From NCBI GenBank assembly GCA_944380885.1, contig CALWIZ010000006.1, positions 1 through 64,000 on the forward strand: a stretch of 64,000 nucleotides of DNA, read 5' to 3'. Below are positions 1,083 to 50,499 of this stretch, one piece after another (position 1 is the stretch's first letter; each line of letters starts with the position of its first letter). Both the position numbers and the translations under genes were made by a program. The stretch is from an uncultured Clostridia bacterium. Lineage in GTDB: Bacteria > Bacillota > Clostridia > Oscillospirales > Acutalibacteraceae. The notes under the pieces were generated by a model. It had not been told where the DNA came from. It did not search any database and worked only from the letters and a program-made list of their open reading frames with translations.

Positions 1083-2594
1083 TTATTTTACACTCTCCGC
1101 GAATCTGATAAATGCCGCAGTTCCCTCGGGGGTTCTCTTGTATACGCCGGCGTGTTCAAGCACCTTTGCGAAGACATGACCGATTTCATCGCGTATGATT
1201 CCGCTTATGTTGCCGCTGTTTATGTCAGGGTGCCGTGTCTTTATATCTTCCGCCCATTCGGCGTGCTTTGCAAGCTGTGGGTCTGATGATATATCCCTGT
1301 TTTCAAGCATAGCTTCCTCAAGCGCCGCCATTTCACCCTTGAGCCTTGAAGGCAGAACGGCAAGCCCCATCACCTCTATTAGACCGATGTTTTCTTTCTT
1401 TATATGGTGAAGCTCCGCGTGCGGATGGTAAACGCCGAGAGGGTGCTCTTTTGTGGTTATATTGTTTCGCAGCACAAGGTCAAGCTCGTAAAGGCTGCCC
1501 CTCTTTCGCGCTATCGGGGTTATAGTGTTGTGCGGCTCGCCGTCGGTTTCGGCAAAGATAAAGGCGGACTCGTCGGTATAGCCGCGCCATGCTTTAAGAA
1601 TTTTGTCGGCAAGCTCGGTGAGCCTTTCGGGGTCTTCCGACGATGTTCTTATAACCGACATCGGCCATTTTACTATACCTGCTTTCACGTCTTCAAAGCC
1701 GTCAAAGACAAGCGGACGCTCGACGGGAGCCTTTGCCATGGCAAAGGTATAATTTCCGCCCTGAAAATGGTCGTGGCTTAAAATGGAGCCCCCGACAATC
1801 GGCAGGTCGGCGTTTGAGCCCACGAAATAATGCGGGAACTGCCTTACAAAATCAAGCAGTTTTTTGAATGTGTCACGGTTTATCGCCATAGGGGTGTGCA
1901 TAGAGTTGAAAACTATGCAGTGCTCATTATAATAAACATACGGAGAATACTGGAAACACCAGTCCCTGCCGTTTATTTTAACCGGTATAACACGGTGGTT
2001 CTGGCGTGCGGGGAAATTCACTCTTCCTGCGTAGCCCTCGCACTCACGGCAGAGCATACATTTAGGATATCCCGCCTGAGGCGCGTTTTTGGCGGCGGCG
2101 ATAGCCTTCGGGTCCTTTTCGGGCTTTGAAAGGTTTATTGTTATATCAAGGTCGCCGTATTCCGTTGAGGTGACCCATTTAATATCCTTTTCTACACGGT
2201 AGCGCCTTATATAGTCGCTGTCCTGGCTGAGCTTGTAGAAGTAGTCCGTAGCGGCTTTGGGTGATACGGCGTAAAGCTCGTTGAATTTATCTGTGACCTC
2301 GCTGGGTCTTGGCATAAGCGCGCCCATCAGCTTGGTATCAAATAAATCACGGTAAACCACGCTGTCTTCGGTAAGTCCTTTACTTACTGCATAATCAAGC
2401 AGTTCGGCGAGTGTTTCCTCAAGACATACGTCCGAAAAATTCTCAGAACAGTCATATTCGTCAAGTTCCAGTATCTCAAGCAGTCTGTTTGTAACGTATA
2501 CCTCGTCCCTTTTTGTAAAAAGTCCCTTTTCAAGTCCGTAGCATACAAGCTTTCTTATACTTTTATCTATCATAAGCTCCACCGGCCTTTTCAT
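1083..2594 (-). CDS. galT: UDP-glucose--hexose-1-phosphate uridylyltransferase, class II
   Basis: This is the Leloir-pathway enzyme that swaps UMP between UDP-glucose and galactose-1-phosphate. The 503-residue length and N-terminus match the Firmicutes class II GalT family rather than the shorter E. coli type. Near residue 273 the segment SHDHFQGG carries the His-containing active-site signature. It is followed by the AEC permease with no gap. No galK or galE is adjacent, but a lacZ lies at 50.7 kb. A strong promoter ends only a few bases before the ATG, and no Shine-Dalgarno is visible, so the mRNA appears leaderless. Confidence 0.93.
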   Translation of the reverse strand: MKRPVELMIDKSIRKLVCYGLEKGLFTKRDEVYVTNRLLEILELDEYDCSENFSDVCLEETLAELLDYAVSKGLTEDSVVYRDLFDTKLMGALMPRPSEVTDKFNELYAVSPKAATDYFYKLSQDSDYIRRYRVEKDIKWVTSTEYGDLDITINLSKPEKDPKAIAAAKNAPQAGYPKCMLCRECEGYAGRVNFPARQNHRVIPVKINGRDWCFQYSPYVYYNEHCIVFNSMHTPMAINRDTFKKLLDFVRQFPHYFVGSNADLPIVGGSILSHDHFQGGNYTFAMAKAPVERPLVFDGFEDVKAGIVKWPMSVIRTSSEDPERLTELADKILKAWRGYTDESAFIFAETDGEPHNTITPIARKRGSLYELDLVLRNNITTKEHPLGVYHPHAELHHIKKENIGLIEVMGLAVLPSRLKGEMAALEEAMLENRDISSDPQLAKHAEWAEDIKTRHPDINSGNISGIIRDEIGHVFAKVLEHAGVYKRTPEGTAAFIRFAESVK

Positions 2595-2604
2595 AATATA
2601 TTAA

Positions 2605-2633
2605 ATTATACCTTTTTTAAGCCGTCCTGTCAA
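2605..2633 (-). promoter_or_regulatory. galT promoter (TTGACA-17-TATAAT)
   Basis: On the minus strand TTGACA (2628-2633) and TATAAT (2605-2610) are separated by exactly 17 bases. The predicted start of transcription is near 2598, only about four bases before the galT ATG at 2594. Confidence 0.8.
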
Positions 2634-2701
2634 TCACGGGAGGCGCTGAATACGGCGATAAAAAGAAATAATTTAAAGGTTATGCGGAAATATCAAAGCT
2701 G

Positions 2702-2730
2702 TTTACTTTTCTACTGAATTGGTGTAAAAT
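2702..2730 (+). promoter_or_regulatory. Probable promoter of the flavoprotein-cmk-ispH operon
   Basis: TTTACT (2702-2707) and TAAAAT (2725-2730) are separated by 17 bases, about 30 bases upstream of the ATG at 2761. Both boxes deviate from consensus. Confidence 0.5.
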
Positions 2731-2760
2731 AATAAATAATTATTTATTAGCGGTGAAAAG

Positions 2761-3993
2761 ATGAAAAAGACAGTTATAATAGGCGGCGGCGCGGCGGGAC
2801 TTATGGCGGCCTGCGCCGCCGCGGAAAAATACGGCGGCAGAGCGGTCACCGTTATAGAGAAGAACCGGCGGCCGGGCAGAAAGCTGATGATAACCGGAAA
2901 AGGCAGGTGCAACGTCACGAATAACTGCGACCGGGACACGCTTATTTCAAATGTTCCGGCAAACGGCAGGTTCCTTTTCTCGGCATTTTCGGATTTCGGC
3001 ACGGCGGACACAATGGAGTTTTTTGAAAAGCGGGGCGTGCCGCTTAAAACCGAGCGGGGAAACAGGGTTTTTCCGGTGTCGGACAAGGCGTCGGACATAG
3101 TGGACGCGCTGGTTAATACGGTAAGAAAAAGCGGCGTAAAAATACTGACTGCCGAGGCGGAGGAGATACTTACGGAAAATTTTGCCGTAACGGGAGTGAG
3201 AACGCGGGACGGCGGAATTTTAGAGGCGGACAGCGTTATCCTCGCCACCGGCGGAATGTCATATCCGGTCACAGGCTCAACGGGCGACGGCTATGAAATG
3301 GCCGGCAGGCTCGGACACACGGTCACTCCGCTTAAAGCGTCGCTTGTGCCGCTTAATGTAAAGCAGGGGTTCTGCTCGAGACTTTCGGGGCTTTCGCTTA
3401 AAAATGTCACCCTTACGGTTTATGAGAGCGGCAGAAAAAAGCCGGTCTTTTCGGAGCTCGGCGAAATGCTTTTTACCCATTTCGGCATATCCGGTCCGCT
3501 GGTGCTGAGCGCCTCGGCGCATATGCGGAAAATGGGGAGCGCGGAGTATGTCGCTTATATAGATTTAAAGCCGGCGCTTGATGAGCAGAAGCTGGACAGC
3601 AGGATACTGCGTGATTTTGAGGAGGAAAAAAACCGTAATTTCGGAAATTCTCTTGATAAACTGCTTCCTAAAAGCATAATTCCGGTAATAATATCACTGT
3701 CGGGCATAGCGCCTGACACAAAGGTGAACCAGATAAGCAGGGAGCAGCGTGCGCGGCTCTGCGGGGTTTTAAAGGCGCTGCGGCTTGACATAACCGGCTT
3801 CAGACCGATAGAAGAGGCGATTATAACCGGCGGCGGGATATCCGTAAAGGAGATAAACCCCTCCACAATGGAATCAAAGCTGGTAAGCGGTCTGTTCTTC
3901 GCCGGCGAGATAATCGACGCCGACGCGTATACCGGCGGCTTTAATCTTCAGATTGCTTTTTCGACAGGTCATCTTGCCGGAAAAAACGCGTAA
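2761..3993 (+). CDS. BaiN/RdsA (HI0933-like) FAD-dependent oxidoreductase
   Basis: The 410-residue protein starts with a dinucleotide-binding fold (IIGGGAAGLMAA) and then TGKGRCNVTN, the hallmark of the HI0933/YhiN flavoprotein family. A second conserved patch, GGISVKEINPSTMESK, precedes the C-terminal FAD contact GEIIDADAYTGGFNLQIAFSTG. Family members bind FAD and possibly NAD(P)H. Some have been linked to bile-acid or disulfide reduction, but the substrate here is unknown. It is the first gene of a plus-strand set with cmk and ispH-rpsA, 22 bases upstream of cmk. Confidence 0.85.
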   Translation: MKKTVIIGGGAAGLMAACAAAEKYGGRAVTVIEKNRRPGRKLMITGKGRCNVTNNCDRDTLISNVPANGRFLFSAFSDFGTADTMEFFEKRGVPLKTERGNRVFPVSDKASDIVDALVNTVRKSGVKILTAEAEEILTENFAVTGVRTRDGGILEADSVILATGGMSYPVTGSTGDGYEMAGRLGHTVTPLKASLVPLNVKQGFCSRLSGLSLKNVTLTVYESGRKKPVFSELGEMLFTHFGISGPLVLSASAHMRKMGSAEYVAYIDLKPALDEQKLDSRILRDFEEEKNRNFGNSLDKLLPKSIIPVIISLSGIAPDTKVNQISREQRARLCGVLKALRLDITGFRPIEEAIITGGGISVKEINPSTMESKLVSGLFFAGEIIDADAYTGGFNLQIAFSTGHLAGKNA

Positions 3994-4015
3994 AGAATAT
4001 GAAAGGAAAATTAAA

Positions 4016-4687
4016 ATGATTTCAGTTGCGATAGACGGTCCGGCGGGTGCCGGAAAAAGCTCGATTTCCCGCATTGCGGCGAAAAAGCTCGGTTTTATTT
4101 ATGTTGATACCGGAGCGCTTTACAGGGCGGTGGGGCTCAAATTCGCCCTTTCGGGAGCGGACACCTCGCTCGACTGTGATATTGACGGTATTTTAAGCAA
4201 AACCGCCGTAGATATAAGGTTTGTAAACGGCGAGCAGCGGGTATTTCTTGACGGGGAAGACGTTTCGGATAAAATAAGAACGCCGAAAGCTTCAATGATG
4301 GCATCGGCGGTTTCGGCGCGTCCGCAGGTAAGGGCGTTTCTTCTTGAAATGCAGCGTAAGCTCGCGAGGGAAAACAACGTTATTATGGACGGACGTGACA
4401 TCGGCACGGTCGTACTGCCTGATGCAGATGTTAAAATCTATCTTACGGCATCGGCGGAGATAAGAGCGGAGCGAAGATTAAAGGAGCTGCTTGAAAAGGG
4501 TCAGCAGGTGACGTATGAGGAGGTTTACCGCGATATGGTAAAGCGCGACTACGACGATATGCACCGTGAGATAGCGCCGCTTAAAAAGGCGGAGGACGCC
4601 GTCACGGCGGACACAAGCGCGCTTGACTTTGATAAGTCGGTGGAGCTGATTCTTGAAATTGTGAAAAGGGAGACTGAAAAACAGTGA
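4016..4687 (+). CDS. cmk: Cytidylate kinase
   Basis: Phosphorylates CMP and dCMP to the diphosphates. The start is set at ATG 4016, preceded by a GAAAGGAA Shine-Dalgarno, giving 223 residues, the usual length. An upstream in-frame start would overlap the flavoprotein. The P-loop GPAGAGKSS lies near residues 8-16, DTGALYRAVG follows, and MDGRDIGTVVLPDADVKIYL is the typical nucleotide-binding motif. The stop overlaps the GTG start of ispH-rpsA, and the cmk-ispH-rpsA order is common in Clostridia. Confidence 0.95.
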   Translation: MISVAIDGPAGAGKSSISRIAAKKLGFIYVDTGALYRAVGLKFALSGADTSLDCDIDGILSKTAVDIRFVNGEQRVFLDGEDVSDKIRTPKASMMASAVSARPQVRAFLLEMQRKLARENNVIMDGRDIGTVVLPDADVKIYLTASAEIRAERRLKELLEKGQQVTYEEVYRDMVKRDYDDMHREIAPLKKAEDAVTADTSALDFDKSVELILEIVKRETEKQ

Positions 4688-6846
4688 AAATAACGCTTGC
4701 GAAAACCGCAGGCTTCTGCTTCGGGGTTGACAGAGCGGTCAAAACCGTTGAAGATCTGCTTGACAAAAGCGAGAGGGTATGCACACTCGGGCCTATAATC
4801 CACAATCAGCAGCTTGTGGAGGAGCTCGGCAGGAGGGGGGCGAGAATAGTCGCCTCACCCGACGAGGTAAAGACGGGAGAAACGCTGGTCATTCGCTCGC
4901 ACGGAGTTGAGCCGGAGGTTATTGAAAACGCGGAAAAGCTCGGAATAAAAACGGTGGACGCCACTTGCCCGTTTGTCGCGAAAATACATAAAATCGTTGC
5001 CGGAAAAAGCCGCGAAGGGTACACTGTTTTAATAGCCGGAGACGCTTCTCATCAGGAGGTAAAGGGGATCGTAGGTCATTGCCTGGGCAGTGAATTTGTC
5101 TTTTCGGGAGAAGAGGAGCTTTTGTTATTGCTTGAAAAAGAGGGAAATTTTGCCGAAAAACGCATAATTTTGGTAGCGCAAACTACTTTTAACGAGGAAA
5201 TTTTTGTAAAGTGCAAAAATATTTTAAAAAAAGTATGTACAAACGCCGAGATTTTTGATACAATATGTAATGCAACTTCTATGCGCCAGCAGGAAGCCCG
5301 GGAGCTGTCGTGCGTTAATGACGCGATGATAGTCATAGGCGGAAGGCACAGCTCAAACACGGCAAAGCTGTTTGACGTGTGCAGGGAAAAATGCGGCAGG
5401 ACGTATCTGATAGAAACGGCGGCGGAATTATCCGGGCTCGATTTGTCGGACTGCGGTTCGGTGGGAGTTGTTGCAGGCGCGTCAACGCCCGCAGGTATAA
5501 TAAAGGAGGTTATTAAAACCATGTCGGAAAATTTACAACCGGTAGAGGAACAGACGGAGGTAAAAGAATCTGTTCAGAAGAGCTTTGAGGAAATGACGGA
5601 CGAGGAAGCATTTGAGGCTTCACTCAGCGGATTAACAGGCGACCAGAAGGTAGTAGGCACCGTTATCACTGTAAATCCCACGGAGATTACCGTGGACATC
5701 GGCAGGGGTGTTACAGGCTATGTTACCGCTGAAGAATTTTCTTCTGACCCTGATGTGAAGCTTACCGATGAGGTAAAGCCGGGTGATGAGCTCAATCTCA
5801 TCATAATGAAAATCAATGACCAGGAAGGAACCGCAATGCTTTCAAAGCGTCGTTACGATGCTATCGCCGGTTGGGACAATATAGTCGCTGCCAAGGATTC
5901 TGGCAAGATTGTTACCGGTTTCGTCAAGGACATTATCAAGGGCGGCGTCGTTGCTTACTCAAACAATGTAAGGGTATTCATTCCCGCTTCGCAGGCAACC
6001 GCTTCAAGGGGCGAGCCGCTTGAGGATCTCAAGGGAAAGGAAGTTTCCTTCCGTATAATTGAAATCGGCAGAGGTCACAGGGCGGTAGGCTCTATCCGCA
6101 GCGTGCTTAAAGAGCAGCGCAAGGCTGCGGAGGACAAAATCTGGGAAAACATTGCTGTCGGCGACCGTTTTACAGGTACTGTCAAGTCGCTCACCAGCTA
6201 CGGTGCGTTTGTCGATATCGGCGGAGTAGACGGTATGATACATATTTCCGAGCTTTCGTGGCAGAGAATAAAGAATCCGTCAGAGGTTGTTCTTGTAGGC
6301 GATACTGTTGAGGTTTACGTAAAGGCTCTTGATACCGAAAAAAGAAAGATTTCTCTCGGTTACAAAAAGCCTGAGGATAACCCGTGGGTTATTTTCGAGA
6401 ATAATTACAAGGTCGGCGATACCGTAAAGGTCACTATTGTCAGCATGACCACATACGGCGCTTTCGCCCGTATAATTCCGGGTATTGACGGTCTTATTCA
6501 CATTTCACAGATTGCCAATAAGCACGTAGCCAAGCCGCAGGACGAGCTTACGGTAGGTGAAGAGGTCGAGGCGAAGATAATCGCCGTCGATTCCGAGAAA
6601 AAGCGCGTAAGCCTTTCTATCCGCGCTCTGCTTGAGCCTGAAGCTCCGGCTGAGAAAGCTGAGCTTAACGCTCCGGACGAGGTAGTGTTCGAGGCGTCCG
6701 ATGAGACTGCCGCAGCCGCTGCCGAGGCACCGGCCGAAGAAGCTCAGGCTGAAACGGCACCCGCTGAGGAAGCAAAAGCCGAAACAGCTCCGGTGGAAGA
6801 AGCTCCGGAAGCCGCAGCTGAAAAGACAGAGGAAACAGCGGAATAA
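4684..6846 (+). CDS. ispH: IspH (HMBPP reductase) fused to ribosomal protein S1
   Basis: Residues 1 to about 278 are IspH, the last enzyme of the MEP isoprenoid pathway. Cys12, Cys95 and Cys195 are the three ligands of its 4Fe-4S cluster. From about residue 320 there are four S1 RNA-binding repeats (approximately 320-389, 403-470, 490-560, 575-645), ending in a low-complexity Ala/Glu/Pro tail. Such fusions are known in Clostridia. A GTG start overlaps the cmk stop. An internal ATG (codon 280, position 5521) is preceded by AAGGAGG, so free S1 protein could also be made. A strong terminator follows. Confidence 0.93.
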   Translation: MKITLAKTAGFCFGVDRAVKTVEDLLDKSERVCTLGPIIHNQQLVEELGRRGARIVASPDEVKTGETLVIRSHGVEPEVIENAEKLGIKTVDATCPFVAKIHKIVAGKSREGYTVLIAGDASHQEVKGIVGHCLGSEFVFSGEEELLLLLEKEGNFAEKRIILVAQTTFNEEIFVKCKNILKKVCTNAEIFDTICNATSMRQQEARELSCVNDAMIVIGGRHSSNTAKLFDVCREKCGRTYLIETAAELSGLDLSDCGSVGVVAGASTPAGIIKEVIKTMSENLQPVEEQTEVKESVQKSFEEMTDEEAFEASLSGLTGDQKVVGTVITVNPTEITVDIGRGVTGYVTAEEFSSDPDVKLTDEVKPGDELNLIIMKINDQEGTAMLSKRRYDAIAGWDNIVAAKDSGKIVTGFVKDIIKGGVVAYSNNVRVFIPASQATASRGEPLEDLKGKEVSFRIIEIGRGHRAVGSIRSVLKEQRKAAEDKIWENIAVGDRFTGTVKSLTSYGAFVDIGGVDGMIHISELSWQRIKNPSEVVLVGDTVEVYVKALDTEKRKISLGYKKPEDNPWVIFENNYKVGDTVKVTIVSMTTYGAFARIIPGIDGLIHISQIANKHVAKPQDELTVGEEVEAKIIAVDSEKKRVSLSIRALLEPEAPAEKAELNAPDEVVFEASDETAAAAAEAPAEEAQAETAPAEEAKAETAPVEEAPEAAAEKTEETAE
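5503..5523 (+). promoter_or_regulatory. Internal ribosome binding site at the S1 boundary
   Basis: AAGGAGG ends at 5509, and an in-frame ATG follows at 5521 exactly where IspH homology ends and the S1 portion begins. The 11-base spacing is slightly long but usable. Confidence 0.5.
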
Positions 6847-6856
6847 TTTTTAAAAA

Positions 6857-6900
6857 GCAAACCGCCGCAGTTACGCAAAACGTAACTGCGGCGGTTTCTT
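6857..6900 (+). terminator. Rho-independent terminator of ispH-rpsA
   Basis: A perfect stem ACCGCCGCAGTTACG/CGTAACTGCGGCGGT with a short CAAAA loop is followed by TTTCTT. Confidence 0.9.
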
Positions 6901-6920
6901 ATGCACAAAAAAGGTGGAAA

Positions 6921-7046
6921 TCAGTAATTTTTGTCGTCGTCTTTCTTGTTCTGGTCGTTGTTCTTATTCTTGTTCTGATCGTTGTTCTTGTTTTTATTCT
7001 GGTTCTGATTTTTGTTGTCGTACTTGTTCTGATTGTTCTTATCCAT
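6921..7046 (-). CDS. Asn/Gln/Lys/Asp-only 41-residue microprotein
   Basis: An ATG at 7046 opens a 41-codon frame that ends in TGA at 6921. After the initiator Met the product uses only D, K, N, Q and Y, with the recurring units NQNK and NNDQNK. A GGGGTGA Shine-Dalgarno sits six bases upstream of the ATG, within the 3' arm of an inverted repeat at 7050-7095. No known domain is visible. The product would be highly soluble and disordered. The regular codon repeats could instead mean a low-complexity non-coding tract, but the RBS argues for translation. Confidence 0.6.
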   Translation of the reverse strand: MDKNNQNKYDNKNQNQNKNKNNDQNKNKNNDQNKKDDDKNY

Positions 7047-7098: not shown

Positions 7099-7884
7099 CT
7101 AAATTCCGAATAATTTTTCAGTATTTTCCTTTGCCGCTTTGAAAATTGCTTCCGGCGAGGTGTTTTTAATTTCGGCGATTTTTGACGCAGTAAAATAAAT
7201 CATTGCCGAATGATTGAGCTTTGAGCGGTAGGGAACAGGGGTCATATAAGGCGCGTCGGTCTCAAGCAACAGACGGTCGGTCGGCAGCATTTCGACTACT
7301 TCAGGCAGCTTGCGCGCGTTCTTAAAGGTAAGCGCGCCGCCTATACCTAAATACATACCGAGCTTAAGAATATCCGCCGCCATTTCTACGCTCCCCGAAA
7401 AGCTGTGCAATACTCCTTTCGGACGGTGCTTTTTTAAAAGCTCAAGCGTGTCGGCATGGGCGTCGCGGTCATGGATGATAACAGGCATTGAAAGACTGTT
7501 CGCAAGCTCAAGCTGTTCTTCAAAAAGCTGCTTCTGCTCTTCCTTGTTATCGCTTACCCAGTAATAATCAAGCCCTATTTCGCCTATCGCTACGCATTTT
7601 TTATGTCCTGCCAGAACTTTTATTTCCGCCGTGGTTCCTCCGCCGATATTCTCGGGGTGTATTCCCGCCGCCGCGTATATATACGGGTAACTTTCGGCAA
7701 GAGCCAGAGATTTTTTTGAAGACTCGGTATCACAGCCGCAGTTTATAACGCCGCAGACGCCGCGTCTTGGCAGCTCGGCTAAAAGCTCGTCCCTTATACC
7801 GTCGAATTTCGGGTCGTCATAATGAGCGTGGCTGTCAAAAATCAGCGGCCTTTCAAGCGGACATTCGTAAAGAAAATCAATCAT
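7099..7884 (-). CDS. tatD: TatD-family metal-dependent hydrolase/DNase
   Basis: The 261-residue TIM-barrel hydrolase carries the metal ligands in order: DSHAHYDD (His-x-His) near residues 18-25, GEIGLDYYW, IHDRDAH, HSFSG and ETDAPYMTP. TatD proteins act as 3'-5' exonucleases or general phosphodiesterases. Its start overlaps the metG stop by four bases, the usual metG-tatD operon arrangement in Firmicutes. Confidence 0.93.
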   Translation of the reverse strand: MIDFLYECPLERPLIFDSHAHYDDPKFDGIRDELLAELPRRGVCGVINCGCDTESSKKSLALAESYPYIYAAAGIHPENIGGGTTAEIKVLAGHKKCVAIGEIGLDYYWVSDNKEEQKQLFEEQLELANSLSMPVIIHDRDAHADTLELLKKHRPKGVLHSFSGSVEMAADILKLGMYLGIGGALTFKNARKLPEVVEMLPTDRLLLETDAPYMTPVPYRSKLNHSAMIYFTASKIAEIKNTSPEAIFKAAKENTEKLFGI

Positions 7885-9803
7885 CTTATTTTACTGCCTG
7901 CCGGAACATTGTCTATAAACAGCACCTTTACGTCGTCTTCGGCGCAGTCTGCTGCAAGTATCATACCGTTCGACTCAACACCGCACAGCGTGGCGGGTTT
8001 AAGGTTTGATACAAGAACCACTGTATGACCGATGAGTTCTTCCGGCTTGTAGTATTTCGCGATGCCAGAGGCTACGGTGCGCTCCTTGCCGCTGCCGTCG
8101 TCAAGGGTGAGCTTTAAGAGCTTTTTGGCTTTCGGCACAGGCTCGCACTTGAGTATTTTTGCGGCTTTAAGCTCAACCTTTGAAAAATCCTCTATGCCTA
8201 TCTGCGCGGCGGTGACGGTGTTTTCTGCCTTTTCGTTTTCTTTTTCGGCTTTCTGCTCGGCGGCTATTTCCGCAAGCACCTTTTCGGCGTCTATCCTTGC
8301 AAAAAGCGGAGTCGCCGCGCCGACCGAATATTCCTTTACTTCTCCGAAGCTTAGAACGGCATTGTCACAGCAAAGCTGCGATTTTATAGCCTCGGCGCTT
8401 TCTGGCATAATGGGGGCAAGCAGGTTCGCGAGGATACGTATACATTCAAGCAGATTGTAAAGCACGGTCTCAAGCTCTGATTTTTTGCTTTCGTCTTTCG
8501 CGAGTACCCACGGAGCGGTCTCGTCAATATACTTGTTGCAGCGCTTGGCAAGATTCATAACCGTGTCGCACGCCTCGGCGTTATGGTAAATATCCATAAG
8601 GCTGTAATATTTCTGAACGGTCTCGTCAGCGCAGGAGATAAGCTCGCTGTCAAATTCGCTCGCCGTGCCTCCTGCCTTTACCTTTCCGCCGAAGTATTTT
8701 CCCGCCATCGCCACCGAGCGGTTTACAAGGTTGCCTAATGTATTGGCAAGGTCGGCATTGTACTTTGTGATAAAGCTCTCGTAGGTTATGGTGCCGTCCT
8801 GCGTAAAGGGCATTTCGGAAAGCAGGTAGTATCTTACCGCGTCGGTTCCGAAACGCTTTGCCATATCGTCGGCATAAATCACATTGCCGCGGGATTTTGA
8901 CATCTTGTCTTCACCGACAAGCAGCCACGGATGACCGAGCACCTGCTTCGGCAGAGGAAGACCCAGCGCCATAAGGATAATCGGCCAGTAAATTGTATGG
9001 AAACGGACAATGTCCTTTCCTATAACGTGAAGGTCTGCAGGCCAGAGCTTATGGAACTGCTCGCTGCTGCCGTCGGGGTCGTAGCCTATTCCGGTAATAT
9101 AGTTGGAAAGAGCGTCAAGCCATACGTATACAACGTGCTTATCGTCAAACGGTACCGGAATACCCCATTTAAAGGAGGTTCTTGAAACACATAAATCAGA
9201 AAGACCCGGCTTTAGAAAGTTATTTATCATTTCGTTTTTGCGTGATTCGGGCTTTATGAAATCGGGATTCTGCTCATAGTATTCAAGCAGCTTATCCTGA
9301 TATTTTGAGAGCTTGAGAAAATAAGCCTCCTCCTTGGCGTCTACAACCTCACGTCCGCAGTCGGGGCACTTGCCGTCCACAAGCTGTGAGGCGGTAAAGA
9401 ACGACTCGCAGGGAACGCAGTATTTGCCCTCATAGTGCCCTTTATAGATATCGCCCTGGTCATACAGCTTTTTAAATATCTTCTGAATTACTTTTTCGTG
9501 ATAATCGTCGGTAGTGCGTATAAACTTATCGTAGCTTGTGTTGAGACTGTCCCATACACTGCGTATTTCCGATGAGACCTTATCGACATATTCCTTGGGA
9601 GAAACACCCGCCGCATTGGCGTATTCCTCTATCTTCTGTCCGTGCTCGTCGGAACCGGTCATCAGGAACACGTCAAAGCCCATCATACGCTTGTAGCGTG
9701 CTATCATATCCGCAAGAACAATGTCGTACGCGTTTCCGATATGCGGCTTGCGCGAGGTATAGGCGATAGCCGTGGTGATATAAAATTTTTTCTTTTCTGA
9801 CAT
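7881..9803 (-). CDS. metG: Methionine--tRNA ligase
   Basis: This 640-residue class I synthetase charges tRNA-Met. The HIGH-type motif is PHIGNAY (residues 20-26) and KMSKS is at 300-304. Cys129, Cys132, Cys146 and Cys149 form one zinc knuckle. The C-terminal ~100 residues (from about 540, IGIEDFSKVELKAAKI) are the Trbp111-like tRNA-binding domain that promotes dimerisation, preceded by a short Lys/Glu-rich linker. The downstream tatD overlaps it, and the membrane protein gene lies upstream with a 16-base gap. Confidence 0.96.
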   Translation of the reverse strand: MSEKKKFYITTAIAYTSRKPHIGNAYDIVLADMIARYKRMMGFDVFLMTGSDEHGQKIEEYANAAGVSPKEYVDKVSSEIRSVWDSLNTSYDKFIRTTDDYHEKVIQKIFKKLYDQGDIYKGHYEGKYCVPCESFFTASQLVDGKCPDCGREVVDAKEEAYFLKLSKYQDKLLEYYEQNPDFIKPESRKNEMINNFLKPGLSDLCVSRTSFKWGIPVPFDDKHVVYVWLDALSNYITGIGYDPDGSSEQFHKLWPADLHVIGKDIVRFHTIYWPIILMALGLPLPKQVLGHPWLLVGEDKMSKSRGNVIYADDMAKRFGTDAVRYYLLSEMPFTQDGTITYESFITKYNADLANTLGNLVNRSVAMAGKYFGGKVKAGGTASEFDSELISCADETVQKYYSLMDIYHNAEACDTVMNLAKRCNKYIDETAPWVLAKDESKKSELETVLYNLLECIRILANLLAPIMPESAEAIKSQLCCDNAVLSFGEVKEYSVGAATPLFARIDAEKVLAEIAAEQKAEKENEKAENTVTAAQIGIEDFSKVELKAAKILKCEPVPKAKKLLKLTLDDGSGKERTVASGIAKYYKPEELIGHTVVLVSNLKPATLCGVESNGMILAADCAEDDVKVLFIDNVPAGSKIR

Positions 9804-45595: not shown

Positions 45596-45786
45596 TTGAC
45601 AAACGGAAAAAAAGTATTATACTTATATTGATATATATAATACTGTTTTTCTGCTTGCTTTTGAAAAAAATACTGTTATGTTGTGATGTTTGACTATTTA
45701 CACAAAAAAAACTTTATTTTTTTTATTGACTGCGACATTGTTTTGCATAAATATCACTTGAATTTATTTTTTTAAGATGTTATAAT
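45596..45786 (+). promoter_or_regulatory. Two tandem promoters upstream of the cohesin-like secreted gene
   Basis: TTGACA (45596-45601)-16-TATACT (45618-45623) and TTGAAT (45758-45763)-17-TATAAT (45781-45786). The 45469-45757 stretch is otherwise very AT-rich and has no gene. Confidence 0.7.
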
Positions 45787-45796
45787 TGCATTAGTC

Positions 45797-45871
45797 ATAG
45801 GAAGCGGTTTAGCTTCGTCTGGACAGTCCGGTCTCGGGGGAGACGAATATTTGGCGAAAGCCGGTTAGGAG
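45797..45871 (+). promoter_or_regulatory. Structured 5' leader with four consecutive hairpins
   Basis: From the downstream promoter the leader contains GAAGC/GCTTC (45801-45816), CTGGA/TCCGG (45819-45831), GTCTC/GAGAC (45831-45844) with a GGGG loop, and TTGGC/GCCGG (45851-45864) with a GAAA loop. CGTCT (45816-45820) can instead pair with AGACG (45841-45845), so two mutually exclusive folds are possible. The AGGAGA Shine-Dalgarno follows. It does not match a riboswitch class I recognise. Confidence 0.55.
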
Positions 45872-45880
45872 AAAAAAAGT

Positions 45881-47404
45881 ATGAAAAAGATTTTCAAAAA
45901 ATCTCTGGCAATTATGGTTTCGGCTGCCATATGCTTAACCGCACTTATCGGCTGCCTTTCCGTAAGCGCTGCGAACGGTGAAGCTCCTGTGTATACAGTG
46001 GCGACCGTAGAGGGCAAAAAGGGCGAAACAGTTGATGTAAATGTAACAGGTGCTGATCTCACCGAAATCTGCGGTCAGGACTTAAGCATTATTTTTGCCG
46101 CAGGTCTTACAATCGGAACCGTGCATGACAATATAACTAATGATGATCTTGTTTGCGATCCTGATGGTGACGGAATGCAGTACAACGTTATCGTCAATGA
46201 TGACGGAACCAATACTCTTAAGATGGTTGACATAATCAACTTCCCGGAATACACTGGTTCACCTGAACTTGTAACAGGTACATTTGATGTTACTATCAGC
46301 GTTACAATACCTGCCGATGCGGCTGCCGGTACTGAATATCCGATAACCATCGACGAGAGTCAGTTTGCCGATTATGATGAGGCCTGGGTTGAACCTACTC
46401 TTACTAACGGTAAGATTACTGTAGTAGAAGATGTAATTGAACCTGTATTGGATGAGTCCATTTCTGCTATAAGAGCTATTCGTATTCAGGATACAGTTGG
46501 CGTGAGCTATCTTGTTCCAAAGGCAGCAATGAGTAAATATGCTGACTTCCGTATTGAGATAAAGTATAATAAATTTGATGGTGATTATAATTATACTCAG
46601 ACATCAATGATAATTAATAAATCAGATGATGAAGCTCCTGCTGAAGGTGTTGTACATGGATTTACATTCCCTGGCGTTGGTATGTATGAAATGAACAATG
46701 AATTAGAAGCTGTTATCTATGCTCTTGATGGTGAGGGTAATGTTGTAGCATACTCTAACACCTTTAAGGATTCAATTGTAGCATTAGCTAAAAACTTGTA
46801 TTCAACAACTGATTCGGTAAAAACAAAGACATTAATTACAGACTTGTTAAATATGGGTGCTGAAGCTCAAAAATATTTTGTTGCTATGAAACCAAATTCT
46901 GATTTGGCTTCAGTTCCGCTTGCAAACGAGGGATTTGATCAAACTTATGCAACTGCAGAGATAAGTAAAGACGATTTAAATACTATTTTTAGTAATGATG
47001 TTATTAAAGGCGATATTAGTATGGTAAATGCACTCTCTTTCGCCGGCTCACCGTGTGTATCTTATGTTATTACCGGTGTTTCCAACTATGATGTATCAAA
47101 ACTTTCTTTGACAGTTTCTTACAGAGATGATTATGCTGGTAAAGATGTCTCTGTTACATTAAATGGTAATGAAATAGCTTTTGGCGGTTCAATGTGTATT
47201 TATGCTTTTTCTAACACGGCATTATATGATGGAAATAAAGTGGTGACTGCTGAACTTTCTTATGATGGCGAAGTATACATAAGAAACACTTGCACTGTTG
47301 AAAAGATTTTGTCTGATAAATTTGATGATCCTACAACAAGCGAACTTGCAAAGAGTACTGCTAAATTTGGTAAATCTGCACGCGAATATTTTGGTATAAA
47401 TTAA
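45881..47404 (+). CDS. Secreted protein with cohesin-like domain and duplicated C-terminal domain
   Basis: A signal peptide (residues 1-30, with a lipobox-like LIGC at 22-25) leads to a cohesin-like module (about 37-190: VATVEGKKGETVDVNVTG … FDVTISVTIPADAAAGTEYPITI). Two related domains follow. The first ends TDLLNMGAEAQKYF and the second AKSTAKFGKSAREYF, each with a beta core (DTVGVSYLVP and SPCVSYVITG), indicating tandem duplication. The DNA becomes clearly AT-richer from about 46.5 kb. It lies 43 bases upstream of the RiPP precursor gene and may share its transcript. Confidence 0.7.
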   Translation: MKKIFKKSLAIMVSAAICLTALIGCLSVSAANGEAPVYTVATVEGKKGETVDVNVTGADLTEICGQDLSIIFAAGLTIGTVHDNITNDDLVCDPDGDGMQYNVIVNDDGTNTLKMVDIINFPEYTGSPELVTGTFDVTISVTIPADAAAGTEYPITIDESQFADYDEAWVEPTLTNGKITVVEDVIEPVLDESISAIRAIRIQDTVGVSYLVPKAAMSKYADFRIEIKYNKFDGDYNYTQTSMIINKSDDEAPAEGVVHGFTFPGVGMYEMNNELEAVIYALDGEGNVVAYSNTFKDSIVALAKNLYSTTDSVKTKTLITDLLNMGAEAQKYFVAMKPNSDLASVPLANEGFDQTYATAEISKDDLNTIFSNDVIKGDISMVNALSFAGSPCVSYVITGVSNYDVSKLSLTVSYRDDYAGKDVSVTLNGNEIAFGGSMCIYAFSNTALYDGNKVVTAELSYDGEVYIRNTCTVEKILSDKFDDPTTSELAKSTAKFGKSAREYFGIN

Positions 47405-47447
47405 TTATTAAACTATTATAATTTATTTTAAAATAGGCGGTGAAAAA

Positions 47448-47570
47448 ATGAAGTTTGAAAGAGCAAGTGTAGAAATTGTTTCATTAAATGTGAACGATGT
47501 TGTTACTACAAGTGGTGGTACGACTATACCATGTTCTTGTGATTTTGGTATGCCAGGCTTGGTTCTCTAA
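47448..47570 (+). CDS. Putative RiPP precursor peptide
   Basis: A 40-residue frame with a GGCGGTGA site upstream. Residues 8-24 (VEIVSLNVNDVVTTSGG) look like a leader ending in Gly-Gly. The last 16 residues (TTIPCSCDFGMPGLVL) form a short hydrophobic core containing a CSC pair. Peptides with similar leaders occur in gut Clostridia next to radical SAM enzymes. The downstream hairpin, kinase-like, radical SAM, PqqD and peptidase genes support the call. The product, its modification and its activity are unknown. Confidence 0.75.
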   Translation: MKFERASVEIVSLNVNDVVTTSGGTTIPCSCDFGMPGLVL

Positions 47571-47588
47571 TTCTACACAGAATTATTA

Positions 47589-47630
47589 AAAAGGAATGAC
47601 CTCATTCTTTGGAGTGAGGTCATTCCTTTT
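47589..47630 (+). terminator. Hairpin between precursor and maturation genes
   Basis: AAAAGGAATGACCTCA and TGAGGTCATTCCTTTT form a perfect 16-bp stem, loop TTCTTTGGAG, with T4 at its base. Partial termination here would give more precursor than enzyme mRNA. Confidence 0.85.
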
Positions 47631-47662
47631 AAGAAAATATTTTAAGAAAAAAGGTAAAATTA

Positions 47663-48382
47663 ATGTTTAAGGCTGAATTGGCTGAAATCAAAATTCAATT
47701 TGAAAACACATATTATCATGTAAATAAAATTATGCTTCCGTGGGTAAATGATTTTTCAAAGCCTGATGTAATATTAAGCGCAACAGACCGTGAAATTCAA
47801 TATGAAGCTGATCTTGATGAAAATAAAGGTATTCACACGAACTCTTACTACGAGGGTATCTGTTTTTTTCGTAAAATCTCTGAAATATTACCTAATTACT
47901 ATTCTTGCGTTTTTCACGCAGCTGTATTTGAAGTTAATAATGTGGGTATTGCTTTGATGGCTGAAAGCGGTGTTGGTAAAACAACGCATATGTTGTTGTG
48001 GCAAGAGTTATTCGGAAGTAATTTAAAAATAATTAACGGTGATAAGCCTATTTTAAAATTAAAAAATGGAGTTCCGTATGCCTATGGTACTCCTTGGTGC
48101 GGAAAAGAAAATTTTGGCTGTAATGATAATACCAGGTTAAGACATATTTGCCTAATAAACAGAAGTTCAAAAAATTATACCGAAATCCTTGGAAAAGACA
48201 AAGCATTTAATCTTTTGTTTAATCAGGTTTATATGCCTAAAGGAACTGAACAATTAGTTGAAACGATGAAAATTATAAATATTTTATTGAACGACTGCGA
48301 ATTTTGGCAAATAAACTGCAACAAAGAAATCGAAGCCGCTGAAATTGCTTCAAATACAATATTATCTAATAAATTATTATGA
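47663..48382 (+). CDS. HPr-kinase/PEPCK-like ATPase of the RiPP locus
   Basis: The 239-residue protein has a Walker A ALMAESGVGKTTHMLLWQ and a DKP motif (IINGDKPILK), followed by YAYGTPWCGKENFGCN, the core of HPr kinase/PEPCK-fold enzymes. Such proteins recur in peptide maturation loci; one lasso-peptide example phosphorylates a precursor serine. The core peptide has a single Ser (residue 30 of the precursor), a possible target, but that is inference. Its AT-rich composition differs from the pqqD 3' end. Confidence 0.8.
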   Translation: MFKAELAEIKIQFENTYYHVNKIMLPWVNDFSKPDVILSATDREIQYEADLDENKGIHTNSYYEGICFFRKISEILPNYYSCVFHAAVFEVNNVGIALMAESGVGKTTHMLLWQELFGSNLKIINGDKPILKLKNGVPYAYGTPWCGKENFGCNDNTRLRHICLINRSSKNYTEILGKDKAFNLLFNQVYMPKGTEQLVETMKIINILLNDCEFWQINCNKEIEAAEIASNTILSNKLL

Positions 48383-48392
48383 GGAGTAGAGA

Positions 48393-49754
48393 ATGACACA
48401 AATTATTGAGCCGGTCAAAATTACCCAATTGGCAATGGGCGATCAAAAGATTATAGAATCTACTTATCGTCTGTCTAAATATGTTTTATCTTATCAAATC
48501 GATAGAGGAATTTTATTGTTTAATGTTTTAACCGGCGAATTAATAGCATTAGAAGAAAAAGAAATTGATATTTCAAATATAAAAGAAAATAATAAAAGTC
48601 TTTACTTTTATTTAATTAACAGATGGTTTTTATTTCCCGATTGTTATAACGAAGTAATCCTTTCGGAACAGGTTAAAGAAACAATGCGACTTGTTATGAA
48701 ATCTTTGCCGAAGAAAGCAATTACTGATTTTACCGTATTTCCTACTACTGATTGTAATGCTAGATGTTTTTACTGTTTTGAGAAAAACAGGCAGCCTATA
48801 ACCATGAGCGAGAAAACTGCAAATGATGTTGCGGATTATATAATTAAAGTGTCAAAAAGTAATAAAATAAAAATAAATTGGTTTGGCGGCGAACCGGTTT
48901 ATAATTATAAAGTTATCGATACAATATGCCATAAATTAAAAAATTACAATATTGATTATTCATCTATGATGGTAAGCAATGGATATTTATTTAATGAAGA
49001 ATTAGTTTTAAAAGCAAAAGATTTATGGAATTTAAATTATATACAGATAACCATTGACGGTACAGAAAAAATATACAATAATATAAAAGCATATATTGAC
49101 AAAACTTTTGAAAATCCATTTTCCCACGTGTTAGACAACATAGAACTCCTCTTAAAAAATCAAATATATGTCAGAATACGTATGAATATGGATAAATATA
49201 ATAGAAATGATTTATATGATCTTGTTAATATTCTGATAACACGGTTTGGGTGTTATGATAATTTCGGTGTTTATTCTCATTTGCTATTTGAAGATACCAC
49301 TAAAGAGATGAAACAACGTGACGATAAAACGCGGCATAAATTAATAGATGATTATTTAGCTCTTGAAGATTATATTATCAAAAAAAATATTTCATTACCC
49401 TATTCTATAGATGGACGATTAAGGTATAGGCAATGTATGGCAGATAATGATTCAGCTACAACTATTTTGCCAGATGGACATTTAGGTAAATGCGAGCATT
49501 ATACCGATAAATGTTTTTGGGGTAGTATATATGAAGACCAAATCGATTATACAATGATCGAAAAATTTATAAAATTAAAAAATAAAGGTGAACAATGCAA
49601 AAATTGTTCATTGTACCCAGCTTGTATGGAATTAGAATCCTGTCCGTCAGCTCTTACAAGGTGTGATGAATTTGATAAAAAGCTCAGATTTTATAATGTA
49701 GAACGATGTGTAAGAGGCTCTTATGAAAACTTTGTAAAAAATAAGGAGAATTAA
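48393..49754 (+). CDS. Radical SAM/SPASM peptide maturase
   Basis: The 453-residue protein has the radical SAM motif CNARCFYCFEKN (near residue 120), then WFGGEPVYN and QITIDGTEKIYNN. The C-terminal SPASM region (CMADN … GKCEHYTDKCFWGS … CKNCSLYPACMELESC) would bind two auxiliary 4Fe-4S clusters. Such enzymes install thioether or carbon-carbon links in ribosomal peptides. A 120-residue N-terminal region precedes the barrel. It is transcribed with the kinase-like gene and followed three bases later by pqqD. Confidence 0.9.
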   Translation: MTQIIEPVKITQLAMGDQKIIESTYRLSKYVLSYQIDRGILLFNVLTGELIALEEKEIDISNIKENNKSLYFYLINRWFLFPDCYNEVILSEQVKETMRLVMKSLPKKAITDFTVFPTTDCNARCFYCFEKNRQPITMSEKTANDVADYIIKVSKSNKIKINWFGGEPVYNYKVIDTICHKLKNYNIDYSSMMVSNGYLFNEELVLKAKDLWNLNYIQITIDGTEKIYNNIKAYIDKTFENPFSHVLDNIELLLKNQIYVRIRMNMDKYNRNDLYDLVNILITRFGCYDNFGVYSHLLFEDTTKEMKQRDDKTRHKLIDDYLALEDYIIKKNISLPYSIDGRLRYRQCMADNDSATTILPDGHLGKCEHYTDKCFWGSIYEDQIDYTMIEKFIKLKNKGEQCKNCSLYPACMELESCPSALTRCDEFDKKLRFYNVERCVRGSYENFVKNKEN

Positions 49755-49756
49755 CA

Positions 49757-50023
49757 ATGAAACTAAAATACAACTTTGTAACAAATGAAGTAGCTGATAA
49801 AATTGTTGCGGTAGCAGTTGGCGACGATCTTGAAAAATTCGGCGGTTTTATCAAAATGAACGGAACAGGCGCCTACATTTTCAATATGCTTAAAAACGAC
49901 GTTACGGAAGATGAAATAGTGACGGCGATGTTAAAGGATTATGAGGATGTAACCGAGCAGGAAGTGCGCGAGACTGTGAAAGAGTTTACCGACAAATTAA
50001 AAGCGGCGGACGTGCTTATCTGA
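49757..50023 (+). CDS. PqqD-like peptide-recognition protein
   Basis: At 88 residues it fits the PqqD/RRE fold: MNGTGAYIFNMLKNDVTEDEIVTAMLKDYEDVTEQEVRETVKEFTDKLKAADVLI. Such proteins bind the leader peptide and present it to the radical SAM enzyme. Its first ~10 codons are AT-rich, then composition returns to that of the chromosome, placing a possible recombination boundary within the gene. The stop overlaps the ATG of the peptidase gene. Confidence 0.88.
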   Translation: MKLKYNFVTNEVADKIVAVAVGDDLEKFGGFIKMNGTGAYIFNMLKNDVTEDEIVTAMLKDYEDVTEQEVRETVKEFTDKLKAADVLI

Positions 50024-50499
50024 TGCAGCATCTTGACATTTATGAGATTGAGGAGAAGCTCAAAAACGATGAGGAAGTTTCTTCTTTAACAGTCGGCATA
50101 AGCATGGAACCTATGCTGAGACAGCATAGAGATATCGTAATAATCAAGAGGGTAAACGGCAGACTGAAGAGAAACGATGTCCCGCTTTACCGCCGCGCAG
50201 GGTGTGACAGATTTATTCTGCACAGAATACTGAAAGTCACAAATGACGGCTATGTAATACGCGGTGACAACCTTTACAGAAAGGAATACGATGTCAAAGA
50301 CGGCGATATTATCGGCGTCCTTAAAGCGTTTTACCGTGACGGGAAGTATTACGACTGCGAAAAAAGCCGAAAATACAAAATATATGTCTTTTTGATGCGG
50401 ACAAGTTATCCTTTCAGATATTTCTGGAAATTCAGACTTCGTCCGTTCCTCGGAAAAATCAAACGCTTTATCTTAGTGCAAAAAAACAGAAAAAAGTAA
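50023..50499 (+). CDS. S24/S26-family peptidase of the RiPP locus
   Basis: The 158-residue protein has GISMEPMLRQHRDIVIIK (Ser27) and RFILHRILKV (His67), the Ser-His pattern of SipW-type S26B peptidases, then DGYVIRGDN. It lacks the N-terminal membrane helix of true signal peptidases, so it could act in the cytoplasm and trim the leader. It shares the operon with the maturase and PqqD genes. The Gly-Gly boundary would be unusual for this family, so substrate and cut site are unproven. Confidence 0.8.
   Translation: MQHLDIYEIEEKLKNDEEVSSLTVGISMEPMLRQHRDIVIIKRVNGRLKRNDVPLYRRAGCDRFILHRILKVTNDGYVIRGDNLYRKEYDVKDGDIIGVLKAFYRDGKYYDCEKSRKYKIYVFLMRTSYPFRYFWKFRLRPFLGKIKRFILVQKNRKK

Follow-up and report, generated by a model that had tools for sequence, protein, structure and literature searches.

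What does a bacterium make with a 40-residue peptide that is followed by a row of peptide-modifying genes? We asked this question for a gene set at positions 47448-50499 on the + strand of a 64,000-nt stretch of DNA from an uncultured Clostridia bacterium, the whole of which is referred to as the window. Five frames follow each other in one direction and encode a putative precursor peptide (47448-47570, 40 aa), a kinase-like protein (47663-48382, 239 aa), a radical S-adenosylmethionine enzyme with a SPASM domain (rSAM; 48393-49754, 453 aa), a PqqD-type protein (49757-50023, 88 aa) and an S26-like peptidase (50023-50499, 158 aa); the gene next after them is β-galactosidase-like. An earlier reading made from the sequence alone, here called the sequence-only reading, had described these five frames as a system like those of ribosomally synthesized and post-translationally modified peptides (RiPPs). 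The frames were found exactly so, and the RiPP-like character is well supported by a conserved leader, a hypervariable core, PqqD, a SPASM rSAM and a peptidase. A sixth gene just upstream was omitted in that reading: it encodes a secreted protein (45881-47404), its stop codon lies 43 bases before the precursor, and we judge it to be the gene that matters most. We consider it rather probable that the locus specifies a RiPP-type, probably thioether-bridged exported peptide which works with the co-encoded surface protein, both being part of an exchangeable, allele-like cassette.

A conserved precursor with a hypervariable core

Searching with the rSAM returned 13 relatives within the genus (14 of 61 genus genomes including the window's own) and one named metagenome-assembled genome (MAG; L018). 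The sequence-only reading had made its proposal depend on conservation of the short frame in related loci and on its presence in homologous sets. Both were looked for: a short frame with the leader E-I-V...D-V-I-T-[TA]-S lies directly before the maturation genes at 15/15 genus-level loci, with more cases in other families, and none of the genus-level sets compared lacked a precursor. In the window the precursor consists of the leader MKFERASVEIVSLNVNDVVTTS (47448-47513) and the core GGTTIPCSCDFGMPGLVL (47514-47567), with the Shine-Dalgarno sequence AGGCGGTG at 47435-47442, five bases ahead of the ATG. How a shared leader is combined with unrelated cores is illustrated by MKAYVEIVKFDVKDVITTS followed by EGEYTCPTEGDLD (L010) and MKAILEVVKFNTQDVITAS followed by NPTCDPVSLPDDEV (L018). 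Mean pairwise identity of the precursors is 40% in the leader versus 9% in the core, the conservation being seen in the 15 genus-level loci and 7 further precursors. The window precursor is recovered by the precursor profile, in which it is itself included, at E=4.9e-11. Judged by this pattern, the 40-residue peptide is a conserved precursor with a hypervariable core. The gene set likewise is more than a chance arrangement, as read from the position of the precursor before rSAMs of 31-50% identity in 15 loci and from its recovery by its own profile.

Two details of the peptide that had been stressed earlier were not borne out. Gly-Gly is not conserved among precursors, and it was rejected as a C39-type cleavage site because the residues following T-T-S are free to vary; the exact CSC is not conserved either. 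What is kept instead is the leader junction D-V/I-V/I-T-T/A-S together with at least one core Cys. Cores are acidic, typically with 3–8 Asp/Glu and hardly any Lys/Arg; the window core has one Asp. It ends in GLVL, and a C-terminal Ser was found only in the precursors of L004 and L157. A longer form, for example K-Y-x-x-P-x-M-E-I-I-E-F-x-x-E-D-V-I, occurs in distant loci from other genera and families of the order (L035/L038, L036, L086, L087, L088, L089). The L037/L040 loci were inspected as well and showed no clear precursor. A known precursor family was sought and rejected, as no NCBIfam model matches any precursor member.

Beside the precursor kit lie small genes for secreted proteins or lipoproteins, which contain low-complexity linkers and share a C-terminal tail (IELPIITV, IELPEIEI, IELPEIPLF, ELPDDELN, HELPIDLFD, NELSIDWFN, VKLPIDWF and IELPMDFFD). 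They are located at L038:2831-3460, L040:8506-9000, L087:6968-7552, L088:6887-7255 and 7268-8038, L089:4143-4616 (-) and L090:1689-2036, and further at L158:3249-3734, L149:1629-2012, L163:2655-3044 (-) and L138:979-1470 (-). The tails resemble the C-termini of some precursors (AIELPIIPVK, NELPVIKD, GIDLPIDNF, NELSVDMLP) and are perhaps recognized by the same enzymes or partner.

The core cysteine accompanies the radical SAM enzyme

The rSAM (48393-49754, +) matches PF04055 (E=4e-14), carries its CxxxCxxC motif as CNARCFYC and shows the full, invariant SPASM cysteine pattern. Its nearest solved structure is 5wgg (E=2.5e-20), and its closest NCBIfam matches are the thioether maturases PapB, Clo7bot, CefB and TIGR04463, all below cut-off. 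As in the PapB-type ranthipeptides, where a core Cys goes with the maturase, a core Cys was found in 22/22 rSAM-linked precursors vs 0/10 rSAM-less ones (Fisher p=1.6e-8), which is a correlation and not chemistry. The rSAM-less precursors came from a search with the precursor profile; since this profile included the Cys column, the search bias runs against picking up Cys-free members. Both kinds of precursor occur within one genome in G046 and in G047. Because of this distribution the rSAM most likely acts on the core cysteine. In nearly all cores an Asp or Glu lies within 0–6 residues of a Cys. The full SPASM cysteine set, the thioether maturases as nearest matches and the acidic residues close to Cys make a thioether bridge the most likely product. 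G047 encodes an extra short radical SAM-like protein (CNYRCSFC; L014:596-1375) between the precursor and the SPASM rSAM.

The five genes had been taken as one unit. The set itself is real, but the kit of kinase, PqqD and peptidase is found without rSAM in most related genomes: within the genus the rSAM is present in 14/61 genomes, the kinase family in 50/61 and the peptidase in 33/39 sampled. G082 has precursor, kinase, PqqD, S26 and a nucleotidyltransferase-like gene and no rSAM, and an rSAM-less set in G046 comprises secreted protein, precursor, lipoprotein, dockerin-like protein, kinase, PqqD and nucleotidyltransferase-like gene. From this occurrence pattern, the kinase/PqqD/S26 kit is the wider core of the system, to which the rSAM is added for Cys peptides.

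A secreted protein precedes the precursor

The upstream gene (45881-47404, +) encodes 507 aa with a signal peptide, a cohesin-like N-terminal domain (Pfam Cohesin, 27.4 bits, above the cut-off of 24.1) and a C-terminal double domain which diverges together with the rSAM. In the genus-level loci and in several further families, the gene immediately before the precursor encodes a secreted protein whose C-terminus bears a homologous double domain, otherwise without a name and marked by the ends ...AQxYF and ...SAxxYF. A secreted protein with this domain precedes the precursor also in rSAM-less loci. Housekeeping genes occupy this position in two distant loci, L036 and L086. Comparison of the C-terminal domain by sequence with solved structures or Pfam gave nothing useful about its fold. 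The genome of the window contains 14 dockerin domains over cut-off, which together with the cohesin N-terminus suggests that the protein docks at the surface to dockerin proteins.

A hairpin of 19 base pairs (47589-47630, +; RNA fold z=-7.5), a putative terminator or attenuator, follows the precursor. An equivalent hairpin was found directly 3' of the precursor in 11/11 loci folded, the ten others having z of -3.7 to -9.6 and unrelated sequences. Place and structure are thus kept and sequence is not, as expected of a terminator or attenuator. Since the secreted gene lies just upstream and the hairpin follows the precursor, the two genes probably share one transcript that is closed by the hairpin, with the enzymes beyond it.

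The region 45646-45976 (+) comprises the predicted promoter, the untranslated leader and the signal-peptide start of the secreted gene, as judged by promoter motif and identity profile; a TG-extended TATAAT with TTGAAT lies at 45758-45786. The part from 45775 to 45924 is 100% identical to the syntenic species described below, the flanks of the two species being about 90% identical, and includes a strongly conserved untranslated leader. A riboswitch in this leader was considered and dropped, there being no Rfam match. Repeated or invertible copies of leader or secreted gene were likewise rejected as a source of switching, as both are single copy in the genome.

Dockerin-like proteins were also seen after rSAM-less precursors (L155:2769-3080 and L168:593-1534); in L155 a gene for a cohesin-like secreted protein lies upstream. 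In Bacteroidales, a Prevotella MAG (L019) combines peptide, rSAM and surface protein in a similar way: two inverted sets of a short Cys peptide (MEKKMYETPEMEEIKL...; 5054-5185 (-) and 6817-6945) with a lipoprotein and an rSAM of 31-42% identity (2706-4025 (-) and 7980-9323). The lipoprotein was called fimbrillin-like by eye, and Pfam gave no match.

Cassette exchange and co-diversification

One related species (L026 of G031) shares its flanking genes and their order with the window. Overall the flanks are about 85-98% identical; on the upstream side DNA identity is mostly 80-97%, being lower in one intergenic stretch, and downstream it reaches 98%. Inside the secreted gene identity drops until the sequences are unalignable, and it returns to about 86% at the start codon of PqqD. 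The segment in between (46400-49754) holds the 3' part of the secreted gene, the precursor, the kinase-like gene and the rSAM. Kinase and rSAM stand in opposite order in L026 and are about 40% identical to those of the window, whereas PqqD is 95% and S26 80% identical. GC content of the segment is about 30% (23% at third positions of the rSAM) vs 40-44% around it, and the rSAM of L026 likewise has a low GC content. The window kinase is moreover an outlier, with 32-43% identity to the others compared with 39-61% among these. The segment between the flanks looks like a replacement and not like drift, so that an exchangeable specificity segment between conserved flanks, as in an allelic pherotype-like cassette, is seen in one syntenic pair.

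We also compared divergence of the genes across 13–14 loci. Similarity of the secreted C-terminus correlates with similarity of the rSAM (Mantel r=0.59 by alignment and 0.70 by pairwise scores, p=5e-5 being the permutation floor), and the correlation also holds without the window or without the closest pairs. In the same loci the kinase correlates neither with the rSAM nor with the secreted C-terminus. Plain linkage is therefore a poor explanation, because the kinase lies in most loci as near to the rSAM as the secreted gene does and shows no signal. The simplest reading of this pattern is that it is the peptide core to which both the rSAM and the secreted C-terminal domain respond.

Kinase, PqqD and peptidase

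The HPr-kinase-like gene of the sequence-only reading (47663-48382, +) is by itself weakly HprK-like (E=0.04; solved HprK 1ko7, E=0.095), and its relatives match HprK at E values down to 1e-4. The families hit by these relatives are ScmC, HprK_rel_B and HPr kinase, in each case under the cut-off; ScmC is the best family match for several of them, far below its cut-off (22 vs 125 bits). A P-loop (GVGKTTH in the window) is conserved, and 41 columns are invariant in 13 homologs. PqqD proteins bind leader peptides, and the one encoded here (49757-50023, +) is a clear family member (PF05402, E=2e-13, 50.8 bits vs a cut-off of 23.4). The proposed Ser-His peptidase (50023-50499, +) can be refined to an S26B-like Ser-His-Asp enzyme: its profile matches SEC11A (E=4e-6) and TIGR02228 (30.9 bits, below cut-off), and S27-M-x-P, H67-R and G81-D82-N83 are invariant in 8 homologs. 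An N-terminal membrane helix was not seen in it, consistent with a soluble enzyme.

In L153 the gene order precursor-kinase-PqqD-S26-nucleotidyltransferase ties the parts of the kit together. The nucleotidyltransferase next to the kit in L038 belongs to PF14907; similar frames are present in L153, L155 and L156, and two copies elsewhere in the window's genome. L040 contains a natural fusion of HprK-like kinase and S26-like peptidase (2297-3544, 415 aa), which suggests that kinase and peptidase act together. The PqqD-S26 pair was rejected as sufficient evidence for the system wherever it occurs, as it also stands alone by a YfhO-like or aspartate-ammonia-ligase-like gene. In the genus members L080, L081, L082 and L085 the pair follows an 870-aa YfhO-like membrane protein with no local precursor.

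Comparison with known systems

The sequence-only reading could name no characterized class for this combination. No NCBIfam model fits precursor or kinase, and the rSAM is far under every equivalog cut-off. With the ranthipeptide and sactipeptide maturases (PapB NF047865, CteB/SCIFF TIGR03974, Clo7bot TIGR04334, TIGR04463) the system shares a radical SAM enzyme with full SPASM domain and a short Cys precursor with leader. PapB joins Cys to Asp/Glu 0–6 residues apart (PMC9413430). The window rSAM, however, scores 112 bits vs a cut-off of 525 at best (84.9 vs 340 for NF047865 and 36.4 vs 425 for TIGR03974), the window core has two Cys and not the six of SCIFF and is not made of repeated CxxxD or SCIFF motifs, and separate PqqD, kinase, S26-like peptidase and surface protein are present here.

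An HPr kinase homolog, a PqqD-type B1 protein, a nucleotidyltransferase and an ABC exporter form an accessory kit in lasso peptide clusters (PMC8498205, PMC7533575). In these the HprK homologs phosphorylate the C-terminal Ser of the precursor, and nucleotidyltransferases add hexoses there (PMC8498205). The Firmicutes lasso clusters of paeninodin and pseudomycoidin resemble the window kit in their HprK-like kinase and stand-alone PqqD, and the nucleotidyltransferase and ABC exporter both occur beside the kit in relatives (L038). The B2 transglutaminase-like protease and the C asparagine-synthetase-like cyclase were, in contrast, absent among the scanned locus genes and not recognized by eye in the frames of relatives; here an rSAM takes the place of these two, with the S26-like peptidase instead of B2, and a C-terminal Ser is not conserved.

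SynChlorMet cassettes consist of the HprK-like ScmC, the PqqD-like ScmD and the rSAMs ScmE/F, and to our knowledge SynChlorMet is the only named cassette with HprK-like, PqqD-like and rSAM proteins together. The present locus differs in having one rSAM instead of two and in its S26-like peptidase and surface protein; with the ScmC, ScmE and ScmF profiles the window and its relatives remain below cut-off. Our literature search, outside of which subscription papers fell, found no paper linking HPr kinase, PqqD, rSAM and RiPP, and none naming the SynChlorMet cassette.

Distinct communication groups of Bacillus arise at the comQXPA pherotype locus, where the peptide diversifies jointly with its modifying enzyme and its partner (PMC4408185). 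Joint diversification is similar here; unlike comQXPA, the window locus has no two-component system, and enzyme and partner are unrelated. A short encoded precursor whose leader is conserved and whose core varies, the neighboring modification genes and the leader-binding PqqD mark the system as RiPP-type. It reaches the cut-off of no named rSAM-RiPP class, and the pairing with a surface protein is its new element.

Proposed model and alternative explanations

In the model we propose, PqqD would bind the EIVxxNxxDVVTTS leader and present the peptide to the SPASM enzyme, which would form a ranthi- or sactionine-like thioether between a nearby residue and Cys29 and/or Cys31 of the core. The HprK-like protein may phosphorylate the peptide or spend ATP on it, as do its homologs in lasso peptides, and the soluble S26-like peptidase would cut after Val-Thr-Thr-Ser22. 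An exporter is absent from the window locus, as had been noted earlier, whereas in the relative L038 the gene immediately following that of the peptidase encodes an ABC exporter; in the window's genome an unlinked ABC transporter would export the product. Outside the cell the product might be bound by, carried on or sensed through the C-terminal domain of the secreted protein, whose cohesin domain would dock to a genome-encoded dockerin protein.

Several points weigh against this model. We infer chemistry, cleavage, export and function of the peptide from sequence. The match of the kinase-like gene to HprK is weak, and the window core lacks the C-terminal Ser that lasso HprK homologs phosphorylate, so that the site of phosphorylation must differ from the lasso one. 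PqqD and S26 are encoded far away from the precursor in several relatives, and their role therefore rests on co-occurrence of the kit and not on strict linkage. Recombination is seen in a single pair of draft genomes, and the Mantel correlation, with its small number of loci, may partly reflect linkage of neighboring genes. The cohesin match is modest, and the secreted C-terminal domain has no known fold; structure predictions made from 1–2 sequences reached pLDDT 42 for this domain and 35 for the kinase and were not used.

If the Mantel signal were linkage throughout, the secreted protein would be a mere neighbor and the system would consist of the five previously noted genes only. It is true that adjacent genes recombine as a unit, that relatives have some of the kit genes unlinked, and that L036 and L086 have their housekeeping gene at the place in question. 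We nevertheless regard this as quite unlikely, since the same C-terminal domain lies upstream in genus-level loci, in several families and also in rSAM-less loci, the hairpin follows the precursor and not the secreted gene, and the adjacent kinase shows no correlation. The peptide could also stay inside the cell as a cofactor-like or regulatory molecule in the manner of PQQ or mycofactocin. A soluble peptidase and a window locus with no exporter would fit; such a role is very improbable given a hypervariable core, which is the opposite of cofactor precursors, the exporter of L038 and the frequent pairing with a secreted protein.

The two remaining explanations have the peptide exported. An ordinary narrow-spectrum bacteriocin would kill relatives, with the secreted protein as immunity protein, decoy or adhesin and allele diversity as the result of an arms race. 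The hypervariable core, species-specific alleles and cassette exchange agree with it, as does an rSAM class known from sactibiotics and ranthipeptides. It appears rather unlikely to us on account of cores that are acidic, unlike most membrane-active bacteriocins (that of the window less so, with its single Asp), a window locus with neither immunity nor exporter gene, a co-varying partner that is a large secreted cohesin-type protein and not a membrane immunity protein, and a kit that serves Cys-free peptides as well. A peptide pheromone with pherotypes, in which the modified peptide is the signal and the exchanged surface domain its receptor or carrier, would account for the replaceable specificity segment of enzyme, peptide and partner domain between conserved flanks, as in comQXPA (PMC4408185), and for the correlated divergence of partner domain and rSAM. 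We hold it to be unlikely, because signal-transduction genes, such as those for a histidine kinase or a transcription factor, are neither present in the locus nor common to the relatives and because the partner is secreted and cohesin-bearing. We prefer the model in which the peptide is modified, exported and active together with the surface protein encoded beside it. Taken further, it might represent an undescribed surface-linked RiPP class in which a modified acidic peptide and the C-terminal domain of a large surface protein from the same transcript form a kin- or self-specific pair, present in several families of the order and, with fimbrillin-like lipoproteins, as a variant in Bacteroidales. 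Specificity would be changed by cassette swap, and the rSAM would serve only the Cys alleles of the wider kinase/PqqD/S26 system. This extension is tentative and, in our view, less likely than not.

Biological meaning

RiPPs are usually regarded as free natural products. In this locus the modified peptide seems to be tied to a cohesin-type surface protein of gut-type anaerobes by synteny, a likely common transcript and correlated evolution, and the replacement of alleles resembles communication or self-recognition systems. If true, a large family of unannotated peptides could be approached from its function first, and thioether-carrying peptides would become predictable from a core Cys together with an rSAM. 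Pairs of rSAM-plus and rSAM-minus systems within one genome would offer natural clean comparisons. For the organism itself, the divergence of peptide, rSAM and secreted tail among related species points to a self-made, species-specific surface or signaling peptide.

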